Origin: Planctomycetaceae bacterium | GTDB lineage: Bacteria > Planctomycetota > Planctomycetia > Pirellulales > Thermoguttaceae | DNA: 33,789 nucleotides | Direction: 5' to 3' | Assembly: GCA_003561895.1 (NCBI GenBank) | Contig: PWXP01000566.1 | Coordinates: 1-33,789, forward strand | In this document: piece after piece, positions 5,035 to 29,134 of the stretch | Numbering within the stretch: position 1 is the stretch's first letter | How the letters are laid out: each line of letters opens with the position of its first letter | Notes under the pieces: generated by a model | What the model was told of the DNA's origin: nothing | The model's input: only the letters and a program-made list of their open reading frames with translations | Databases searched by the model: none | Program-made: the position numbers and the translations under genes

Positions 5035-6837
5035 ATGCCAAACCGACTGCATGCGTCCCTGAGTCCCTATCTTCTGCAACATGCCGAGAACCCGGTCGAC
5101 TGGTATCCGTGGTGCGAGAAAGCTCGGCAGAAGGCGGCAGAGGAAGACAAGCCGATTTTTTTGTCGATCGGCTATTCGGCGTGCCACTGGTGCCACGTCA
5201 TGGCGCACGAGAGTTTCGAGGACGACGGCCTTGCCCGACTGCTTGCCGAGCACTTCGTCAGTGTCAAGGTCGATCGGGAGGAACGGCCGGACCTCGACCA
5301 GCTTTACATGGACGCCGTGCAGATGATGGGGGGGCAGGGAGGCTGGCCGCTTTCGGTATTCCTGGCGCCGGATGGACGGCCTTTTTTCGGCGGCACCTAT
5401 TGGCCCTACCCGGCGCGCGGCGGCATGCCCGGCTTCGATCAGGTGCTCGCGGCGATCGCCGGCGCCTGGCGGGATCGGCGGCAGGAGCTTCTCGAGCAGG
5501 CCGAGAAGGTAACCCGCTTCCTGGTCGAGGCAAACCGGGGCGCCGGCGAAGGGGCGATGCCCGGCCCGGAAACGCTGGCAGCGGCCGAGGCGGCGCTGCG
5601 GCAGGCGTTCGACGCCGAGTTCGGCGGCTTTGGCCCGGCGCCGAAGTTCCCGCAGCCCACCAGCCTGCGGTTGCTGCTCCGCCGCTGGCGGCATTCCGGC
5701 AACGACGACCTGTTGCGGATGGTCGCGAAGACCCTCGAGTGCATGGCCGGCGGCGGCATCTACGACCACCTGGGCGGCGGGTTCCACCGTTACAGCGTCG
5801 ACCGCCGCTGGCTGGTGCCCCATTTCGAAAAGATGCTGTACGACAACGCCCAACTTGTCGCCTGTTACGTCGAGGCGTGGCAGGCCACCGGCCGCGACGA
5901 GTTCGCAGACGTTGCCCGCGAAACGCTCGACTACGTCCTCCGCGACATGGCCCACCCGGAGGGGGCCTTCTTCAGCAGCGAGGACGCCGACAGCGAGGGC
6001 CGGGAGGGAACCTTTTACCTGTGGAACCCCGGTGAGGTGCGGGCGGTACTCGGCGCCGGCCGCGCCGAGACCTTCTGCCACGTGTACGACGTGACGGAAT
6101 CCGGCAATTTCGAGGGGAAGAGTATCCTGAACCGCCCCCGCGCCCTGGCCGAACACGCCCAAGCGCTGGGCCGGACGGTTGAGGAACTCTCGGCCGGATT
6201 GGAAGCAAGCCGCGCGGCACTGCGGGCCGCGCGGGCGAAGCGCGTTCGACCCGGCCGCGATGACAAGGTGCTGCTCGGCTGGAATGCGATGATGGTCGAC
6301 GCCCTCGCCCGGGCCGGCGCGGCGCTGGGCCAGCCGCGCTACACGGAGGCCGGCGTTCGGGCCACCGAGTTCCTGCTGGGCCGGCTGCGGGATGAACGCG
6401 GCCGCCTGCTCCACTGCTGGCGGAACGGTCAGGCCCTGCACCCGGCCTTTCTGGACGACGTAGCCCTCCTGGCCGACGCGCTGACCACGCTCCACGAAAC
6501 GACCGGCAACGCCCACTGGCTCGACGCCGCCATGGGCCTGGCCGACGATCTGCTCGCCCGGTTCGCCGATGCCGAGGGCGGCGGCTTCTTTTACACGCCC
6601 GCCGATCACGAGCCGCTCATCGCCCGCAAAAAAGAATTCGTCGACGGCTCGACCCCGAGCGGCAATGGGCTGGCAGCGGCCGTTCTGGTGCGACTCGGCC
6701 ACACGTACGGCCGCGGCAACTTCATCGAGGGCGCCGCCTCGGCCTTGCGCGCCGGCGCCGACGTGCTCGACCGCGTGCCGAACGCGGCCGGCCAGTTGCT
6801 GATCGCGCTGCAGGCGTATCTCCAGCGGGAAGCCTGA
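5035..6837 (+). CDS. DUF255 thioredoxin-domain protein (YyaL/SPATA20 family)
   Basis: [30 protein letters not shown]...[20 protein letters not shown]...[23 protein letters not shown]; CxxC motif and six-hairpin-like C-terminus. Confidence 0.95.
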
Positions 6838-20073: not shown

Positions 20074-23000
20074 TTATTGCGCGGCGGCAACGGTTGCCAG
20101 GTCGACGGCAACGATTTCGAGGCCGTTGATCATGGGCCCGAGTTCCGAACCGTCCGACTTGCGCAACTCGATGGTGATCCGTTCGTCGGCTCGGACGGTC
20201 AATTCCTTGACGGCGCCGCGGAAGCAGCCCCCCGTCTCGGCAACGATGTCGAACTCGCTGAGGACCTCCTCGCCGTCGATCAGCACGTCGAACACGCGCT
20301 GGCCGGGTTCCACGCCGTCGGCGAGTTCGGCGAAGTGGAGGCGAACGGTATAATCGCCCTCGACCACCTCGTCGATCCGGATGCGCTCCTCTTCGTCGGC
20401 CTCGCGGGCCGAGGCGGCCACCCAGGCCAACGAGGCGCCGGCATCGGCGATGGCCGATGCGTGGCGGCGGTGCGTGCCCGAGGCGTCGTGCCATACCCTG
20501 CCGGCGTCGTCGACCCGTCGTCCCGGGGCGCCGAAGTTCACGCCGTGCCCTTCCGGGTCGGGCCGGGAGGCGTGGTAGCGGGTCCAGAACTCGATGTTCG
20601 GGTCGCCCGGCATGTGCACCAGCGCCAGCGAGGTCTGCTGCGCGTAACTGCACGTGCAGCTTCGGGTGTAGTCGAGCGCGTTGAGCACGCCGTCGGCGGC
20701 GAGCATGTTGGGGGTGCACCCGGCGCGGAACCCGCCCAGGGTGCCGGTGCCGCTGTCGTGCTCGAGGTCGAAGAAGCCCGCATACCCGGTGCGATACAGC
20801 AGCAGGTTATCGCTGGCGTTGAGCGTATTGCAGCCGTAGCGGCGCCGGTAGCTCCAGTCGTCCTCCCTGCCGGTGTGCGGCTGCTCGCGCGTCCACCGCT
20901 CGCCGGTCAGCAACGAGATGGCGTTGCCGGGCCGGCCGGGGATGAGCATTTCGCCGCGGAGCGCGGCGGGCAGGACGAAGCGCCCGCCTTGCCAAAGGAT
21001 TTCGCCGTCGTCGGCGCGTCGGGCGGTGATGTTGCGGGGCTCGTCGCCCAGCCGGCGGCGCAGGTCCTGGCTGCCGCCTTCGATGAGGATGTCGTGCTCT
21101 TCGCTGTACAGCAGGAACGTGCCGAACACGTTACTGTCGGTCCGCCAGCGCTCTTCGCCGGTTCGCAGATCGAGGGCCAAGACCACCGAGGGCTCGTCGG
21201 AGTCGGCGCCTCGGCGCGCGAGTTGCTTCACCGCGTTTTCCGAAAGGCCGTCGATGACGAAGACCGTATCGCCGTTGCTGATAATGGCGTTGTGCCGGAA
21301 GCCGATGTTCGCCTCCCGTTCCCAGCGGACCTCGCCGTCGCGGCGGTCCATCACCACCAGCCGCCGGCTCGACGTCCCGCTGTAGCTGTCGGTCCAGCCC
21401 AGGTTCTGGTCCTCGAAGATGTGCGGCTCATTCGTGGTGACCAGGAAATCGCCCTGTACGCTCACGTGGCCCCAATCGGGCGCGTCGTCGTCGTACAGTT
21501 CGGCCACGGAACGGCCGGGCAGCGAGAACTCGCCGATCGTTTCGCCGGTGGCCGGGTCGAGCCGCTGGATGCGACCCTCGTAACGCAAATAGATGCTGTC
21601 GGAAAGTGTGACGAACGGGCTGCCGATGTACGTGGCGCCGGGGATGTTCGACATGTACACTTCCCTTCCCCTCGCCCAACGCCGTTCGAGATCGAGGTTG
21701 GTGAACGGGTGGCCGATGCCCGGAAAATCCCGCTCCCAAAGCTGGCGGCCGGTGTACACGCAGCGGGCGCCGACGGTTTCGACGCCCAGGAACACCTGGC
21801 GCCCGGCGATGACCTGGGGCCGCGGTCCGCCCGAGTGGCGCGGGAGGATATTGTGGTTGTTGGGCCCGCCGAACCACAGCACGCCCAGCGGCAGCCGCAC
21901 GCGCCGGTCGCGCGAGAGCAGCGTATTGGCCGCGTCGTGGTGCTGATGGGTCCACTGGCCCGCGCCGGTCAAGGGGCCGCCCCGCTTTGCGAACAGATGA
22001 TTGCGCCGGCTTTCCACGGAAACCTGATCGACTTCGGCCTCGGCCAGTGCGTCGGCCAGATCCGACTCGGAGACCGTCGCGCCGCCCAGCCAGGCCACGC
22101 CGCCGTAGGGGCGCAGCCGGTCGAGCATCGCGGCCATCGCGGCCGCGTCGCCGCCGATTCCCGCCGCGCGGGCGTCCTCGCTCACCACCAGGCTGAACAG
22201 GTAGGGTTGCACGGAAAACGCGGCCGGGTCGGCCTCGATGACCGCGGCTCGCCGCCCCGACATGCCGCTCGCCGCCAACTCGTCGCGCAGCGCCCGCACA
22301 CGGGCGGCGTCGCCTTCGGCCACCACGACGTGCAGGTCGCTTTGTGTCAGCAGTTCGCGCAGCAGGTCGCCGGAACCGGCGCCCAGCACGAGGGCATATC
22401 CCGCCGACTCGCCGAGTTGTTCGAGCAGGTCGCCGGCGGTTTGCTCCCAATCGTCGGAGCGCGGTTCCAGGGAAACCGGGCTGTATTCGTGTCGCGCGGG
22501 TTCCTCCACCTCGTCCGGGCCGAAGCAATACAGCTTCCCGCACTTGGTCGTCACGAACAGGCGGTCGCGGGCGGCCAGCTTGTAGAAGACGTCGCCGTCG
22601 ATTTCGTCGGACAGGGCGCCGACGCGACCGCGCAACATGTCGTTGCGCCGCATCCCCATGCCGCCGCCGCCGACGGCATGGACGGCGTAGTTGCCCCGGC
22701 CCTTGCGGCCGCGATAGTCGGAACGGGTAACCCTGCCCGTCTGCCGGTCGAGATGGACCGGGTTCGGGCCCCTCCCGGCGGAAACGACCAGTTGATCTTC
22801 GCCGGCGGCGATGTAACCCTGCGGCGAAAGACCGCCGTAGCCGTCGGCGCCGCCGTGGGGCAGCGCCACGTAGTCGGAACTAGTCGTGTCGTTCACCCAC
22901 ACCACCTCGCCGCTTTCGGCGTCGAGCGCGTAGATGAACACCCCGTGCAGCGGCCAGATGCCGGCGGCGAAGTAGACGGTGCCGTCCTTGATGACCGGTC

Positions 23001-23559
23001 CGCCGCGGGCCGCCCAGAAGTTGATGATCCGCTCGTTGCCCAGCAGCCGATGGTCAGACGGGCCGGCGCGGAACTTCCACACCAGTTCGCCGTCTTCGGC
23101 CCCGACGCAGTACAGGTGGCCGTCGTCGGAGATGAAATACACCCGGCCGTCGAACGCCGCCGGGGCCAGCCGCACGGGGCCGTCGGTGTAGAATCGCCAC
23201 AACTCAGCGCCCTCGTCGATACTGTACGCGGTGACGCTGTCGGTGACGTTCGAGGGGACGAAAATCCGCTCGCCCATGACCACGGGGGCGTAGGAAACAT
23301 CGAATTCGAGCTTACCCCGGTCGTCCCATTGGTGGGGCCAAGCCCGTTTAGGTTCGGGGAGTTCGCGCACCCACTGCAAGTGGAGATCTTCGGCAAGCTC
23401 CAGCGACGTTCCCGCACTTCGGGCGGCGTCGTACCGCCACATGGGCCAGTCGGCGTCGTCCGCTGCGCGCGAACGGTTGGCGCCAGAGGCCAGGATCCAC
23501 ACAAACCCCAGGCACAGCAGGGGAAGGGTGTTTTTCAGGGTTTTCCAACATTTCTTCAT
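20074..23559 (-). CDS. Secreted PQQ-like beta-propeller protein with inserted methyltransferase-like domain and C-terminal malectin-like domain
   Basis: Start MKKCWKTLKNTLPLLCLGFVWILASGANRSRA; propeller repeats (LYCVGAEDGELVWKFRAG, VFIYALDAESGEVVWVND, VLALDLRTGEERWRTD); Rossmann-like YALVLGAGSGDLLRELLTQSDLHVVVAEGD; malectin-like IDEVVEGDYTVRLHFAELADGVEPGQRVFDVLIDGEEVLSEFDI. ORF track extends upstream to 23859. Confidence 0.88.
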   Translation of the reverse strand: MKKCWKTLKNTLPLLCLGFVWILASGANRSRAADDADWPMWRYDAARSAGTSLELAEDLHLQWVRELPEPKRAWPHQWDDRGKLEFDVSYAPVVMGERIFVPSNVTDSVTAYSIDEGAELWRFYTDGPVRLAPAAFDGRVYFISDDGHLYCVGAEDGELVWKFRAGPSDHRLLGNERIINFWAARGGPVIKDGTVYFAAGIWPLHGVFIYALDAESGEVVWVNDTTSSDYVALPHGGADGYGGLSPQGYIAAGEDQLVVSAGRGPNPVHLDRQTGRVTRSDYRGRKGRGNYAVHAVGGGGMGMRRNDMLRGRVGALSDEIDGDVFYKLAARDRLFVTTKCGKLYCFGPDEVEEPARHEYSPVSLEPRSDDWEQTAGDLLEQLGESAGYALVLGAGSGDLLRELLTQSDLHVVVAEGDAARVRALRDELAASGMSGRRAAVIEADPAAFSVQPYLFSLVVSEDARAAGIGGDAAAMAAMLDRLRPYGGVAWLGGATVSESDLADALAEAEVDQVSVESRRNHLFAKRGGPLTGAGQWTHQHHDAANTLLSRDRRVRLPLGVLWFGGPNNHNILPRHSGGPRPQVIAGRQVFLGVETVGARCVYTGRQLWERDFPGIGHPFTNLDLERRWARGREVYMSNIPGATYIGSPFVTLSDSIYLRYEGRIQRLDPATGETIGEFSLPGRSVAELYDDDAPDWGHVSVQGDFLVTTNEPHIFEDQNLGWTDSYSGTSSRRLVVMDRRDGEVRWEREANIGFRHNAIISNGDTVFVIDGLSENAVKQLARRGADSDEPSVVLALDLRTGEERWRTDSNVFGTFLLYSEEHDILIEGGSQDLRRRLGDEPRNITARRADDGEILWQGGRFVLPAALRGEMLIPGRPGNAISLLTGERWTREQPHTGREDDWSYRRRYGCNTLNASDNLLLYRTGYAGFFDLEHDSGTGTLGGFRAGCTPNMLAADGVLNALDYTRSCTCSYAQQTSLALVHMPGDPNIEFWTRYHASRPDPEGHGVNFGAPGRRVDDAGRVWHDASGTHRRHASAIADAGASLAWVAASAREADEEERIRIDEVVEGDYTVRLHFAELADGVEPGQRVFDVLIDGEEVLSEFDIVAETGGCFRGAVKELTVRADERITIELRKSDGSELGPMINGLEIVAVDLATVAAAQ

Positions 23560-23994: not shown

Positions 23995-25197
23995 CTAGGC
24001 GTCCAGTGCCTGGCGCAGGTCGGCGATAAGGTCTTCGGCGTTCTCGACGCCGCAGGCCAGGCGGATCATGTTGTCGGAAATGCCCACCGCCCGGCGCTGC
24101 TCGGGCGTGTGGCTGTGGTAGCTCATGACGATGGGTTGCTCGATGAGCGACTCGACCCCTCCGAGGCTCGGCCCGATGCGCGGCAGGCGGACGGCGTCGA
24201 CCACGCGGGCGGTGGCGGTGGCGTCGGCATCTTTGACCAGAAAGGTGATTAGCCCGCCGAAGCCGCGCAGGTACCGCAGGGCGACGCCGTAATCGCGGTG
24301 GCTGGGCAGGCCGGGGTAGTAGACCTTTTCGACGCGCGGGTGCCCCTCGAGGAACTCCGCCACGGCCATGCCGTTCTCGTTGTGCCGCCGCATGCGCAGT
24401 TCGAACGTCTTCAGCCCCCGCAGCAACAGGTAGTCGCTGTGCGGACCCGTCAGGTTGCCCACCACGCCGCGCAGGTCGCGCAGGGACTGGAGCTTTTCGG
24501 CCGAGCCGATGACCACGCCGCCCATCATGTCGTTATGCCCGGCAAGGTACTTCGTCACCGAGTGGACCACGTAATCGACGCCGTAGTCCAGCGGGCGGAG
24601 GTTCATCGGGGTGGCCAGCGTCGGGTCGACCATCGTCTCGATACCGTACTTGCGTCCCAAGGCGACGAACTGCTCGAGGTCGACCACGCTGAGGTGCGGG
24701 TTGGTGGGCGACTCACTGATCAGCAGCCGAGTGCGGTCGTTGATGGCGGCTTCCATGGCCTCGTAGTCGCAGGCGGGCACCTTGTGGGTGGCGCACCCGA
24801 ACCGGCCCAGGCACTCAGTGCAGAACTGGCGCGTGCGGTGATAGCACTCGTCGAACAACACCACCTCGTCGCCGGCGCGCAGTTTGGCCAGCAACAACCC
24901 GGCCACGGCCGACATGCCCGACGAATACAGCACGGCCGTCTCCCCACCGTCGAGCGCGGCCAGCTTGGCCTCGGCGACCTTTTGGGTCGGGTTGCCGTAC
25001 CGGGCATACTCCTCGCGGGGGAGATTCTGTTCGACGAACTCGATGGCCTCACGGGTGTCGGCAAAGGTGTAGGTGGCGGCGCAGAAGATGGCGTCGGTAA
25101 TGGCGTTTCCTGGCTTCTGGCGGGCCTCACCCGCGTGGACGGCCTGGGGGGAAAACCCCACACCGGGGGGCAAGAATGGCGTCGGATGATCGGTCAT
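23995..25197 (-). CDS. Cys/Met metabolism PLP-dependent enzyme (cystathionine gamma-synthase/lyase family)
   Basis: ITDAIFCAATYTFADT...EYARYGNPTQKVAEAKLAALDGGETAVLYSSGMSA...SVTKYLAGHNDMMGGVV (PLP lysine)...PSLGGVESLIEQP. Confidence 0.94.
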   Translation of the reverse strand: MTDHPTPFLPPGVGFSPQAVHAGEARQKPGNAITDAIFCAATYTFADTREAIEFVEQNLPREEYARYGNPTQKVAEAKLAALDGGETAVLYSSGMSAVAGLLLAKLRAGDEVVLFDECYHRTRQFCTECLGRFGCATHKVPACDYEAMEAAINDRTRLLISESPTNPHLSVVDLEQFVALGRKYGIETMVDPTLATPMNLRPLDYGVDYVVHSVTKYLAGHNDMMGGVVIGSAEKLQSLRDLRGVVGNLTGPHSDYLLLRGLKTFELRMRRHNENGMAVAEFLEGHPRVEKVYYPGLPSHRDYGVALRYLRGFGGLITFLVKDADATATARVVDAVRLPRIGPSLGGVESLIEQPIVMSYHSHTPEQRRAVGISDNMIRLACGVENAEDLIADLRQALDA

Positions 25198-25221
25198 GGT
25201 TACGAATCCTTTGCAACGGAA

Positions 25222-25262
25222 GCAAAAAGAAACCGCGACAGGCGCCTCATGGGCGGTCGCGG
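25222..25262 (-). terminator. Terminator-like hairpin in the leader of the PLP-enzyme gene
   Basis: On the minus strand: ccgcgaccgcccatgaggcgcctgtcgcgg followed by tttcttttt, about 25 nt before the start codon. Confidence 0.5.
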
Positions 25263-25660
25263 CTTTGCGGTTTCCGGTTGTTTCGCTGGGGGCTACATCC
25301 CCCCGGCGCTGGCTCTTTAGCAGTGCAGGTTGCCCACACAAGCGGGTACCCGGCGGAAATGGCGTCTCATCGCCCTTCCCGCGTAACGGCTGCAAGCGGC
25401 CGCAAATCCCATGCGACCCATGCTATTCCAGGACGGCGCGAAATGCAAGGGGTAGGCCGGTAGGCCGGGAGAACGCCAACGCCGGCGCGGCGAGTCTTTT
25501 CTTTCGACGCTGCGTGGAGAACCATTCGATCGCCCCAAAAGCCACCCCAACCTTCTCAGTCGACCTATCTTGTCTTGACCGAAAGCTTGCATGTTTCGAT
25601 AATCCGCCGCTGCTTCCAATACCGATAAACAGCGCGGTGAAAATGGACAAGGAGTAAGGC

Positions 25661-26843: not shown

Positions 26844-28364
26844 ATGCCAACGAGGGGCATGCCTGGGGACGGGCGAGGGACGCGGGGCATTTCGGGTTTC
26901 AAGTCCCTCCAGCCGACCGGGCGGCCAATTGTGACTGTCGATCTCCAGAACCGCGCTGCCGGCGCACCCATCGTCGAGCCGCTCTCGCCCACTCCCACCC
27001 CGGAGGAGGCCTTCCGCGCGTTGTGCCACCTGCCGCATTGCTTGTGGCTCGACAGCGCCGTGGAGCACCCGGAGACGGGGCGATTTTCCTTTCTTGCGGC
27101 TGATCCGTTCGACTACTGGCAGCGAGCCGTTGCCTCACCGCGCGACCTGGACCGCCTCGCGGCCCGCCTGGGGGCACTGGCAACCGCAACCGTGCCCGGG
27201 GTGCCGCCGTTCCAGGGAGGGGCGGCCGGCGTGCTGGGCTATGAGTTTGGGCATTCGCTGGAGACGTTGCCGCGGCCGGCCTACGACGAGTTCCGGGCGC
27301 CCGTACTCGCGCTGGGCTGGTACGACGTGGTGCTGGCCTGGGACCATGCCTCCAGGGCGGCGTGGATCGTCTCGCAGGGCTTACCCGAGTTGGACCCCCA
27401 CGCGCGACACCGGCGTGCCGCGTCGCGGCTGGCATACTTCCGCCGGTGCCTGGCCGGGGAAGCGCCGCCGCGAAGGGGCGAGCCGCCCCCGCCGCCGCTG
27501 GCCGCCGGAGACCTGGCTCCCCAGCACCCCGTTGCGGGGCCGGCCGGTCTGACGTCGAACTTCTCGCAGGGGCAGTTCCTGCGTACCGCCGAACGCGCCA
27601 TCCGGTACGTGCTCGAGGGCGACGTTTTTCAGGTCAACCTCGCCCAGCGGCTGTTGGCGCCGGCCCAGTGCAATTCCGCGGAACTGTACCTGCGACTGCG
27701 GCAGTGCAACCCGGCGCCGCTGGCCGGGTACTTCGATCTGGGGCCGTTTCAGGTCGTTAGCGCCTCGCCCGAACGGTTCCTCCGCGTCGAAGACCGGCAC
27801 GTCGAGACGCGGCCGATCAAAGGCACGCGGCGGCGGACTGCCGATCCGGAAGCCGACCGGCGCGTCGAGACCGAACTGCTCCGCAGCGAGAAAGACCGGG
27901 CCGAGAACGTGATGATCGTCGACCTGTTGCGCAACGACCTTTCCCGGGTTTGCGAGCCGGAAAGCGTACGGGTGAGCCGGCTTTGCGGGCTGGAACGCTA
28001 CCGGTTCGTGGCACACCTAGTGTCGGTGGTGGCCGGGCGGCTCCGCGAAGGAACGTGCCCGGTCGACCTGATCCGGGCCGCCTTTCCCGGCGGGTCGGTC
28101 ACCGGGGCGCCGAAGGTCCGCGCGATGGAGATCATCGCGGAACTCGAACCTACCGCCCGAGGGCCGTACTGCGGTTCGCTGGGCTACTTTGGCGTAGACG
28201 GCTCGATGGGCCTCAGCATCCTGATCCGCACCATCACCGCCGGCCGCGGATGGTGGCAGATTCCCGTCGGCGGCGGGATCGTGGCCCAATCAGACCCTCG
28301 GCAGGAATACGAAGAAACGTGGCACAAGGCCGCGGGGATGCTTCGGGCGATCGGGCAAGCATGA
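26844..28364 (+). CDS. pabB: Aminodeoxychorismate synthase component I
   Basis: EGDVFQVNLAQRL...SASPERFL...ETRPIKGTRRRTADPEAD...NVMIVDLLRNDLSRVCEPESVRV...FPGGSVTGAPKVRAMEII. PIKGT (not PIAGT) favours PabB over TrpE. Start uncertain (26844-26931). Confidence 0.93.
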   Translation: MPTRGMPGDGRGTRGISGFKSLQPTGRPIVTVDLQNRAAGAPIVEPLSPTPTPEEAFRALCHLPHCLWLDSAVEHPETGRFSFLAADPFDYWQRAVASPRDLDRLAARLGALATATVPGVPPFQGGAAGVLGYEFGHSLETLPRPAYDEFRAPVLALGWYDVVLAWDHASRAAWIVSQGLPELDPHARHRRAASRLAYFRRCLAGEAPPRRGEPPPPPLAAGDLAPQHPVAGPAGLTSNFSQGQFLRTAERAIRYVLEGDVFQVNLAQRLLAPAQCNSAELYLRLRQCNPAPLAGYFDLGPFQVVSASPERFLRVEDRHVETRPIKGTRRRTADPEADRRVETELLRSEKDRAENVMIVDLLRNDLSRVCEPESVRVSRLCGLERYRFVAHLVSVVAGRLREGTCPVDLIRAAFPGGSVTGAPKVRAMEIIAELEPTARGPYCGSLGYFGVDGSMGLSILIRTITAGRGWWQIPVGGGIVAQSDPRQEYEETWHKAAGMLRAIGQA

Positions 28365-29134
28365 TCCTTCTGATCGACAATTACGACAGTTTCGTGCACA
28401 ACCTGGCGCGGTACTTCGAGCGGCTGGGCCGGCGGACCCAAGTGGTCCGCAATACGGCGATCGACGCCGCCGGGGTGCGCCGACTGCACCCCGACGCCCT
28501 AGTCCTCTCGCCCGGCCCCTGCGCCCCGCGCCAGGCCGGCTGTTCCCTGGAACTGGTCCGCGCCTTGCACGGCGAACTGCCCATCCTCGGCGTATGCTTG
28601 GGCCATCAGGTCGTTGCCGAGGCGTTCGGCGGGCGGGTGGTGCGGGCCGAGGAGCCGGTCCACGGCCGGGCGACGCCCATTCGCCACGACGGCCGCGGCC
28701 TGTTCGAAGGACTGCCCGTGGAATTCGCTGCCGGACGGTACCATTCACTGGTCGTCGAAGAGGCGTCGCTGCCGGAGTGCTTGGAAGTATCGGCTCGGGC
28801 GCCGGGCGGCGCGATCATGGGGCTGCGGCACCGAGCCTTGCCGGTCGTGGGGCTGCAGTTCCACCCCGAGTCGATCCTCACGGAATACGGCTACCACCTG
28901 CTTGCGAACTTCTTGCGGGTGGCCGGCTTGCCCCTGTCCGAGCCGCTCCCGAGCATTGACACGGAACGCGCTAGGGGAGTGGAATCCTCGCGAAGAAGAT
29001 CATCCGTGACCTTTGCGACCGATGACCGCCGCCTGCTACCGTACATCGCCGTAGTGCACGACCAGCGCAGCCGCGGCGCGGTCGAGCCCGAAGGCCGACT
29101 CGGCCCGAGCCCGCGCGGCCTGACCCAGGGCTAA
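28361..29134 (+). CDS. pabA: Class I glutamine amidotransferase (PabA/TrpG)
   Basis: MILLIDNYDSFVHNLARYFERLG...LSPGPCAPRQAG...ILGVCLGHQVVAEAFGG...VVGLQFHPESILTEYGYHLLANFL; ATGA overlap with pabB. Tail beyond about 28930 is atypical. Confidence 0.93.
   Translation: MILLIDNYDSFVHNLARYFERLGRRTQVVRNTAIDAAGVRRLHPDALVLSPGPCAPRQAGCSLELVRALHGELPILGVCLGHQVVAEAFGGRVVRAEEPVHGRATPIRHDGRGLFEGLPVEFAAGRYHSLVVEEASLPECLEVSARAPGGAIMGLRHRALPVVGLQFHPESILTEYGYHLLANFLRVAGLPLSEPLPSIDTERARGVESSRRRSSVTFATDDRRLLPYIAVVHDQRSRGAVEPEGRLGPSPRGLTQG

Follow-up and report, generated by a model that had tools for sequence, protein, structure and literature searches.

The window analysed here is a stretch of 33,789 nucleotides (contig PWXP01000566.1, assembly GCA_003561895.1) from a Planctomycetaceae bacterium. 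The continuous frame that an earlier note had placed at 20074-23559, naming no strand, lies exactly there on the minus strand. It runs from an ATG at 23559 to a stop at 20074 and encodes 1,161 amino acids plus the stop (1,162 codons). The plus strand of the same interval is likewise open; its translation is unrelated and contains none of the motifs described below. As dN/dS among close relatives is well below 1 in every domain, the gene is not a chance open reading frame. Its product almost certainly consists of the parts listed in Table 1, in that order.

Table 1. Parts of the gene and their positions in the window
Feature	Residues	Window positions	Strand	Basis
Whole gene: signal peptide, propeller P1, MT domain, propeller P2, malectin-like module	1161 aa	20074..23559	-	
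Signal-peptide-like N-terminus (MKKCWKTLKNTLPLLCLGFVWILASGANRSRA)	1-32	23464..23559	-	hydrophobicity rule; most relatives alike
First PQQ/BamB-like beta-propeller (P1)	about 36-350	22510..23454	-	Pfam, P1-P2 homology
Class I methyltransferase-type Rossmann domain (MT)	366-526	21982..22464	-	profiles, AlphaFold2 segment model, Foldseek
Second beta-propeller (P2)	about 530-1000	20560..21972	-	P1-P2 homology
Four invariant cysteines of P2	C910, C948, C968, C970	20650..20832	-	family alignment
C-terminal malectin-like carbohydrate-binding module	about 1005-1155	20095..20547	-	Pfam

The segment likened in the earlier note to class I methyltransferases (aa 372-528) lies where it had been placed, at 22446-21976 of the window. 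As a single sequence it matches Methyltransf_25 weakly, short of the Pfam cut-off both as the whole protein (E 0.0023) and as the isolated segment (1e-4). Searched against the PDB, a profile built from 38 homologous segments matches RebM at E 3.7e-6 and, more strongly, the putative SAM-dependent methyltransferase 3dlc at E 2.4e-9, and 31 of the 38 relatives match Methyltransf_25 (best E 2.3e-13). Helices and strands alternate in a medium-confidence AlphaFold2 model of aa 335-539, computed from 8 rows (mean pLDDT 67.8; 80-88 in the central part). With this model Foldseek returned 459 PDB matches at E<=1e-3, led again by 3dlc (E 2.2e-7); the best 50 of the 459 are methyltransferases nearly throughout. 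The full-length AlphaFold2 model (8 rows) has a mean pLDDT of 41.6, too low for reading the domain arrangement or the surroundings of the cysteines. Family profiles, segment model and Foldseek matches thus bear out the resemblance and identify the segment as a Rossmann domain of the class I methyltransferase type; the structural check proposed for it returned a fold of this type, not propeller blades. With its nearest solved structure, 3dlc (MMP1179), and then with RebM (3bus), it has in common the Rossmann fold, the motif order and an LRPxGG post-motif.

The genome of the window also encodes a stand-alone methyltransferase (G000:C605:29-868, L089/L158) whose motif I is intact (VDLGAGRGQ) and whose N-terminus is signal-peptide-like. 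No other ordinary methyltransferase of the genome scores as high against the family MT profile (38.9 bits; next, 21.1), and this one is a candidate source of the MT domain.

The propeller repeats had been recognised correctly (PQQ_2/BamB repeats, Pfam E 3.3e-27). Profiles of P1 and P2 cut from the family alignment match each other with an hhalign probability of 98.6 (E 8.9e-16), and the two are homologous from a common N-terminal motif, the W-motif GQWTHQHHDAANT with which P2 opens and its P1 counterpart DWPMWRYDAARS. Neither profile resembles the MT domain. The homology of P1 and P2 means that MT joins two separate propellers and interrupts none, which rules out the insertion within a single propeller that had been proposed before. 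In the subgroup to which the window protein belongs, P1 is ∼100-140 residues (about two blades) shorter than in most paralogues, with the gap at about aa 278-320 (22600-22730, minus strand), directly before MT; a P1 of this length may or may not still close as a propeller.

The earlier note had asked whether the architecture recurs. It does so in many relatives, from independent assemblies of several phyla, some of them single-contig genomes. Eight homologous loci at 70-96% identity come from MAGs labelled Planctomycetales, Planctomycetaceae, Opitutales and Lentisphaerae. Of these eight, L008 lies on a truncated contig and the other seven are full length. A profile covering the last P1 blade, MT and the start of P2 finds seven full P1-MT-P2 copies in the window's own genome. 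It also matches 102 of 294 sampled Planctomycetota genomes at E<=1e-3, where strong full-length copies reach about ten per genome and the weakest matches may be ordinary methyltransferases. For the phylum to which the Opitutales MAG belongs, 43 of 241 genomes match, ∼17 of which look strong and near full length. From Planctomycetota and Verrucomicrobiota we collected 99 P1-MT-P2 genes, seven of them from the window's genome; a few had been fetched twice, leaving 95 distinct. The window protein, with the cyclic order of the three parts and the four P2 cysteines, is a member of a large family of proteins, apparently not described before, that occurs in Planctomycetes and related bacteria.

No description of such a family was found in the open-access literature searched. 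Searches there for this domain combination or for the propeller/BamB expansion of planctomycetes gave no mention of a methyltransferase domain in such proteins, and searches on exported, inactive or degenerate methyltransferases gave no description of this family. Many BamB paralogues have been recorded from planctomycete genomes: T. immobilis reportedly has 28, of 43-193 kDa and in different cell fractions (PMC8567305). In P. limnophila bamA is the sole essential Bam gene (PMC10632474). Propeller repeats and a signal peptide are common to the present family and BamB/PQQ_2 (PF13360) proteins; in contrast to these, the family adds an MT domain between two propellers (or a permuted arrangement), four invariant cysteines and lectin-type modules. 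It explains part of the big, uncharacterised 'BamB/PQQ' paralogue expansion in Planctomycetes.

The same genomes encode a second layout, in which the signal peptide is followed by MT, P2 and P1. MT matches were obtained in 141 open frames: 99 have the order P1-MT-P2 (class A), 30 have MT-P2-P1 (class B, 29-30 genes) and the others are incomplete. No other order occurs among those frames that contain all three parts, so that the two classes are related by circular permutation at the level of domains, and the cyclic order P1-MT-P2 is retained in 129 genes. The C-terminal propeller of class B scores ∼100-135 bits against the P1 profile and 10-16 against that of P2; for the N-terminal propeller the scores are reversed. 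Moreover, the blade with which P1 ends in class B is the one that leads straight into MT in class A. Class B forms one group in the MT tree (29 of 29, support 0.92), and its 26 rows in the P2 tree, with L008 left out, form one clade (SH-aLRT 99). An apparent polyphyly of class B in the P2 tree (AU p 0.005) was due to L008, a truncated class A gene scored as class B because its contig begins inside the MT domain. A single permutation event would explain these trees and domain orders, perhaps one that went through a tandem duplication followed by loss of some parts. With two layouts and a single cyclic order, the family is a clear case of circular permutation among the domains of a natural three-domain protein.

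Two loci, L193 (G088:C11:670000-689000) and L194 (G066:C6:7000-25000), each carry three to four family genes in tandem. Some MT domains in these arrays are very degenerate, and such arrays are a possible route to circular permutation. On contig G000:C184 (L035, L199) a class A gene stands beside a class B gene fragment on the opposite strand. One class B gene (L187:8020-11946) has, by eye, a LamG-type lectin-like segment inside P1, ahead of the last blade.

The four P2 cysteines are the strictest feature common to both classes. In class A they are present in 93/93 (C910), 91/91 (C948), 90/91 (C968) and 90/91 (C970) sequences with a residue at the position; in class B the corresponding counts are 27/27 for each of C910, C948 and C968, and 25/25 for C970. 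In three genomes inspected by eye, every class A four-cysteine propeller match had an MT match in the same gene (7/7, 7/7 and 6/6). A scan of 69 class A sequences gave no CXXCH motif, and a multi-haem or cytochrome function was rejected on this basis.

The MT domain differs from class I SAM-dependent methyltransferases in having lost the motif-I acid in most members and in its predicted location within an exported multidomain protein. Motif I of the window protein reads LVLGAGSGD, V replacing the D/E that precedes GxGxG in active SAM-dependent methyltransferases, and its strand 2 ends with an acid (VVVAEGD). The motif-I acid is retained in 10/95 class A and 0/29 class B members (10/124) and lost in 114/124, class B often having His at this position (VH[LV]GCG). 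A subset of class A, for instance L043 and L048 (VDLGCG), has the full canonical motif. As a control, 24 further PF13649 methyltransferases from the window's genome were counted by eye from their sequences, and the acid is present in all of them (24/24; Fisher p 5e-20 for family versus control, relatedness among sequences being ignored). GxGxG is intact in 41/95 class A (the window protein among them) and 11/29 class B members, and the acid ending strand 2 in 77/95 and 16/29, respectively. In methyltransferases the latter acid is the usual ribose contact. Given these class A frequencies a nucleoside ligand may still bind, and a residual nucleoside pocket in the MT domain is possible. This pocket and the four invariant cysteines yield specific predictions.

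Selection on this domain was compared among close relatives. The dN/dS ratios are 0.08-0.11 for P1, 0.08-0.14 for P2, 0.12-0.26 for MT and 0.16-0.33 for the malectin module; MT is thus at about twice the level of the propellers and close to the malectin module. Such values indicate that the domain is maintained, not decaying: it is degenerate, held by purifying selection and less constrained than the propellers. Its best-conserved positions lie mostly outside the SAM motifs (R425, Y/G434-435, Y453 and P484-G487 in RPYGG). It would represent a methyltransferase fold retained under purifying selection in an exported protein after degeneration of the SAM motif. The suggestion in the earlier note of a 'repurposed ligand or redox-cofactor domain' fares well as regards repurposing, which the loss of the motif-I acid favours; between ligand and redox cofactor the sequence does not decide.

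Both ends of the protein agree with what had been read from the DNA. By a simple hydrophobicity rule (not SignalP) the N-terminus is signal-peptide-like. So it is in most of the family genes open to judgement by this rule, 74 of 90 in class A and 28 of 29 in class B, several of the negatives resembling missed or truncated starts. At the C-terminus, aa 1067-1122 match Malectin (E 7.8e-12; 45.9 bits, the PF11721 gathering score being 23), the match spanning only positions 74-128 of 163, in the C-terminal half of the profile; Malectin_like matches the module at E 2.5e-9. Among 35 family members scanned, 20 carry Malectin, 7 Laminin_G_3 and 1 CBM96.

We consider it somewhat better than an even chance (about 0.55) that the protein is an exported pseudo-methyltransferase, acting as a structural or ligand-binding hub within a carbohydrate-binding envelope protein. 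It would be a cell-envelope protein in which two BamB/PQQ-type propellers are joined by a methyltransferase-derived Rossmann domain. With a conserved part of the SAM-binding motif lost in most members, the window protein included, methylation is probably gone, and the MT domain would most likely be a pseudo-enzyme that provides a rigid hub, a pocket for a small ligand, or both, between the propellers. Malectin-like or other lectin modules may tether the protein to polysaccharide. We propose that the cyclic order survives in two permuted classes because P1, MT and P2 form one cooperative unit. METTL14, a degenerate methyltransferase with a scaffold role (PMC6413633), may offer a parallel, of function only: it likewise combines a methyltransferase fold and a degenerate active site with a structural role. 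It differs in being a cytosolic/nuclear RNA methylation partner, and no sequence relation is claimed.

Other readings give the domain more chemistry. The MT domain might hold a non-SAM nucleotide-type or redox ligand and, with a metal or disulfide redox centre formed by the four P2 cysteines, make an exported oxidoreductase or sensor. We regard this as unlikely, although the glycine-rich loop and the strand 2 acid are kept more often than the motif-I acid, class B has a conserved His at that very position and no feature of the family is stricter than the cysteines. These lie in P2, however, not in MT, and may be plain structural disulfides of an exported protein; CXXCH is absent from the scanned class A set, and the neighbouring genes include no conserved redox partner. 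Rather doubtful, too, is a surface sensor or new type of enzyme: outside the cytoplasm the exported, repurposed domain would bind a small ligand, nucleotide-like or other, and relay this to the propellers, one of them with a four-cysteine metal or redox site. Such a family would persist in two circularly permuted forms, with copies amplified to ten or more in a genome. That the protein is still an active exported SAM-dependent methyltransferase seems improbable to us: the window protein does keep GxGxG and the strand 2 acid (LGAGSGD ... AEGD), some class A members have the full canonical motif, and the nearest ordinary methyltransferase (G000:C605) combines an intact motif I with a signal-peptide-like start. 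Nevertheless, the motif-I acid is missing from the great majority of members and no substrate or partner gene recurs nearby. Moreover, no supply of SAM is known outside the cytoplasm, which also counts against activity there.

The propellers themselves could instead define the protein as a PQQ-dependent dehydrogenase or a BamB outer-membrane assembly factor, with MT as a decoration. Their top Pfam and PDB matches are indeed BamB and PQQ dehydrogenases, and planctomycete annotation names such paralogues BamB (PMC8567305). Yet the protein reaches 45.3 bits against the BamB equivalog TIGR03300 (cut-off 285.2) and 32.9 against PQQ_enz_alc_DH, TIGR03075 (cut-off 480), and it lacks the adjacent Cys-Cys (vicinal disulfide) of quinoprotein dehydrogenases, leaving this reading very improbable. 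Finally, the assembly of the window is fragmented (680 contigs), as would suit an assembly artefact or chance fusion; but the architecture recurs in independently assembled genomes from several phyla, some of them in a single contig, which refutes such an origin and makes its probability negligible. The hub function of a pseudo-methyltransferase remains our preferred reading.

Among 84 proteins neighbouring family genes, no partner family recurs beyond DUF1559/N_methyl, found in 5. In the window, a PLP enzyme of Cys/Met metabolism (PF01053, 9.1e-123; 23995-25395, minus strand) adjoins the gene on the same strand; it is ruled out as an operon partner, a near-identical relative (L001) having another neighbour. 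Further away, frames at 26844-28364 and 27950-29134 (both plus strand) correspond to component I of anthranilate synthase and to a partner of the glutamine amidotransferase type. A Thioredox_DsbH (DUF255) protein (3.1e-74) is encoded at 5035-6837 of the plus strand.
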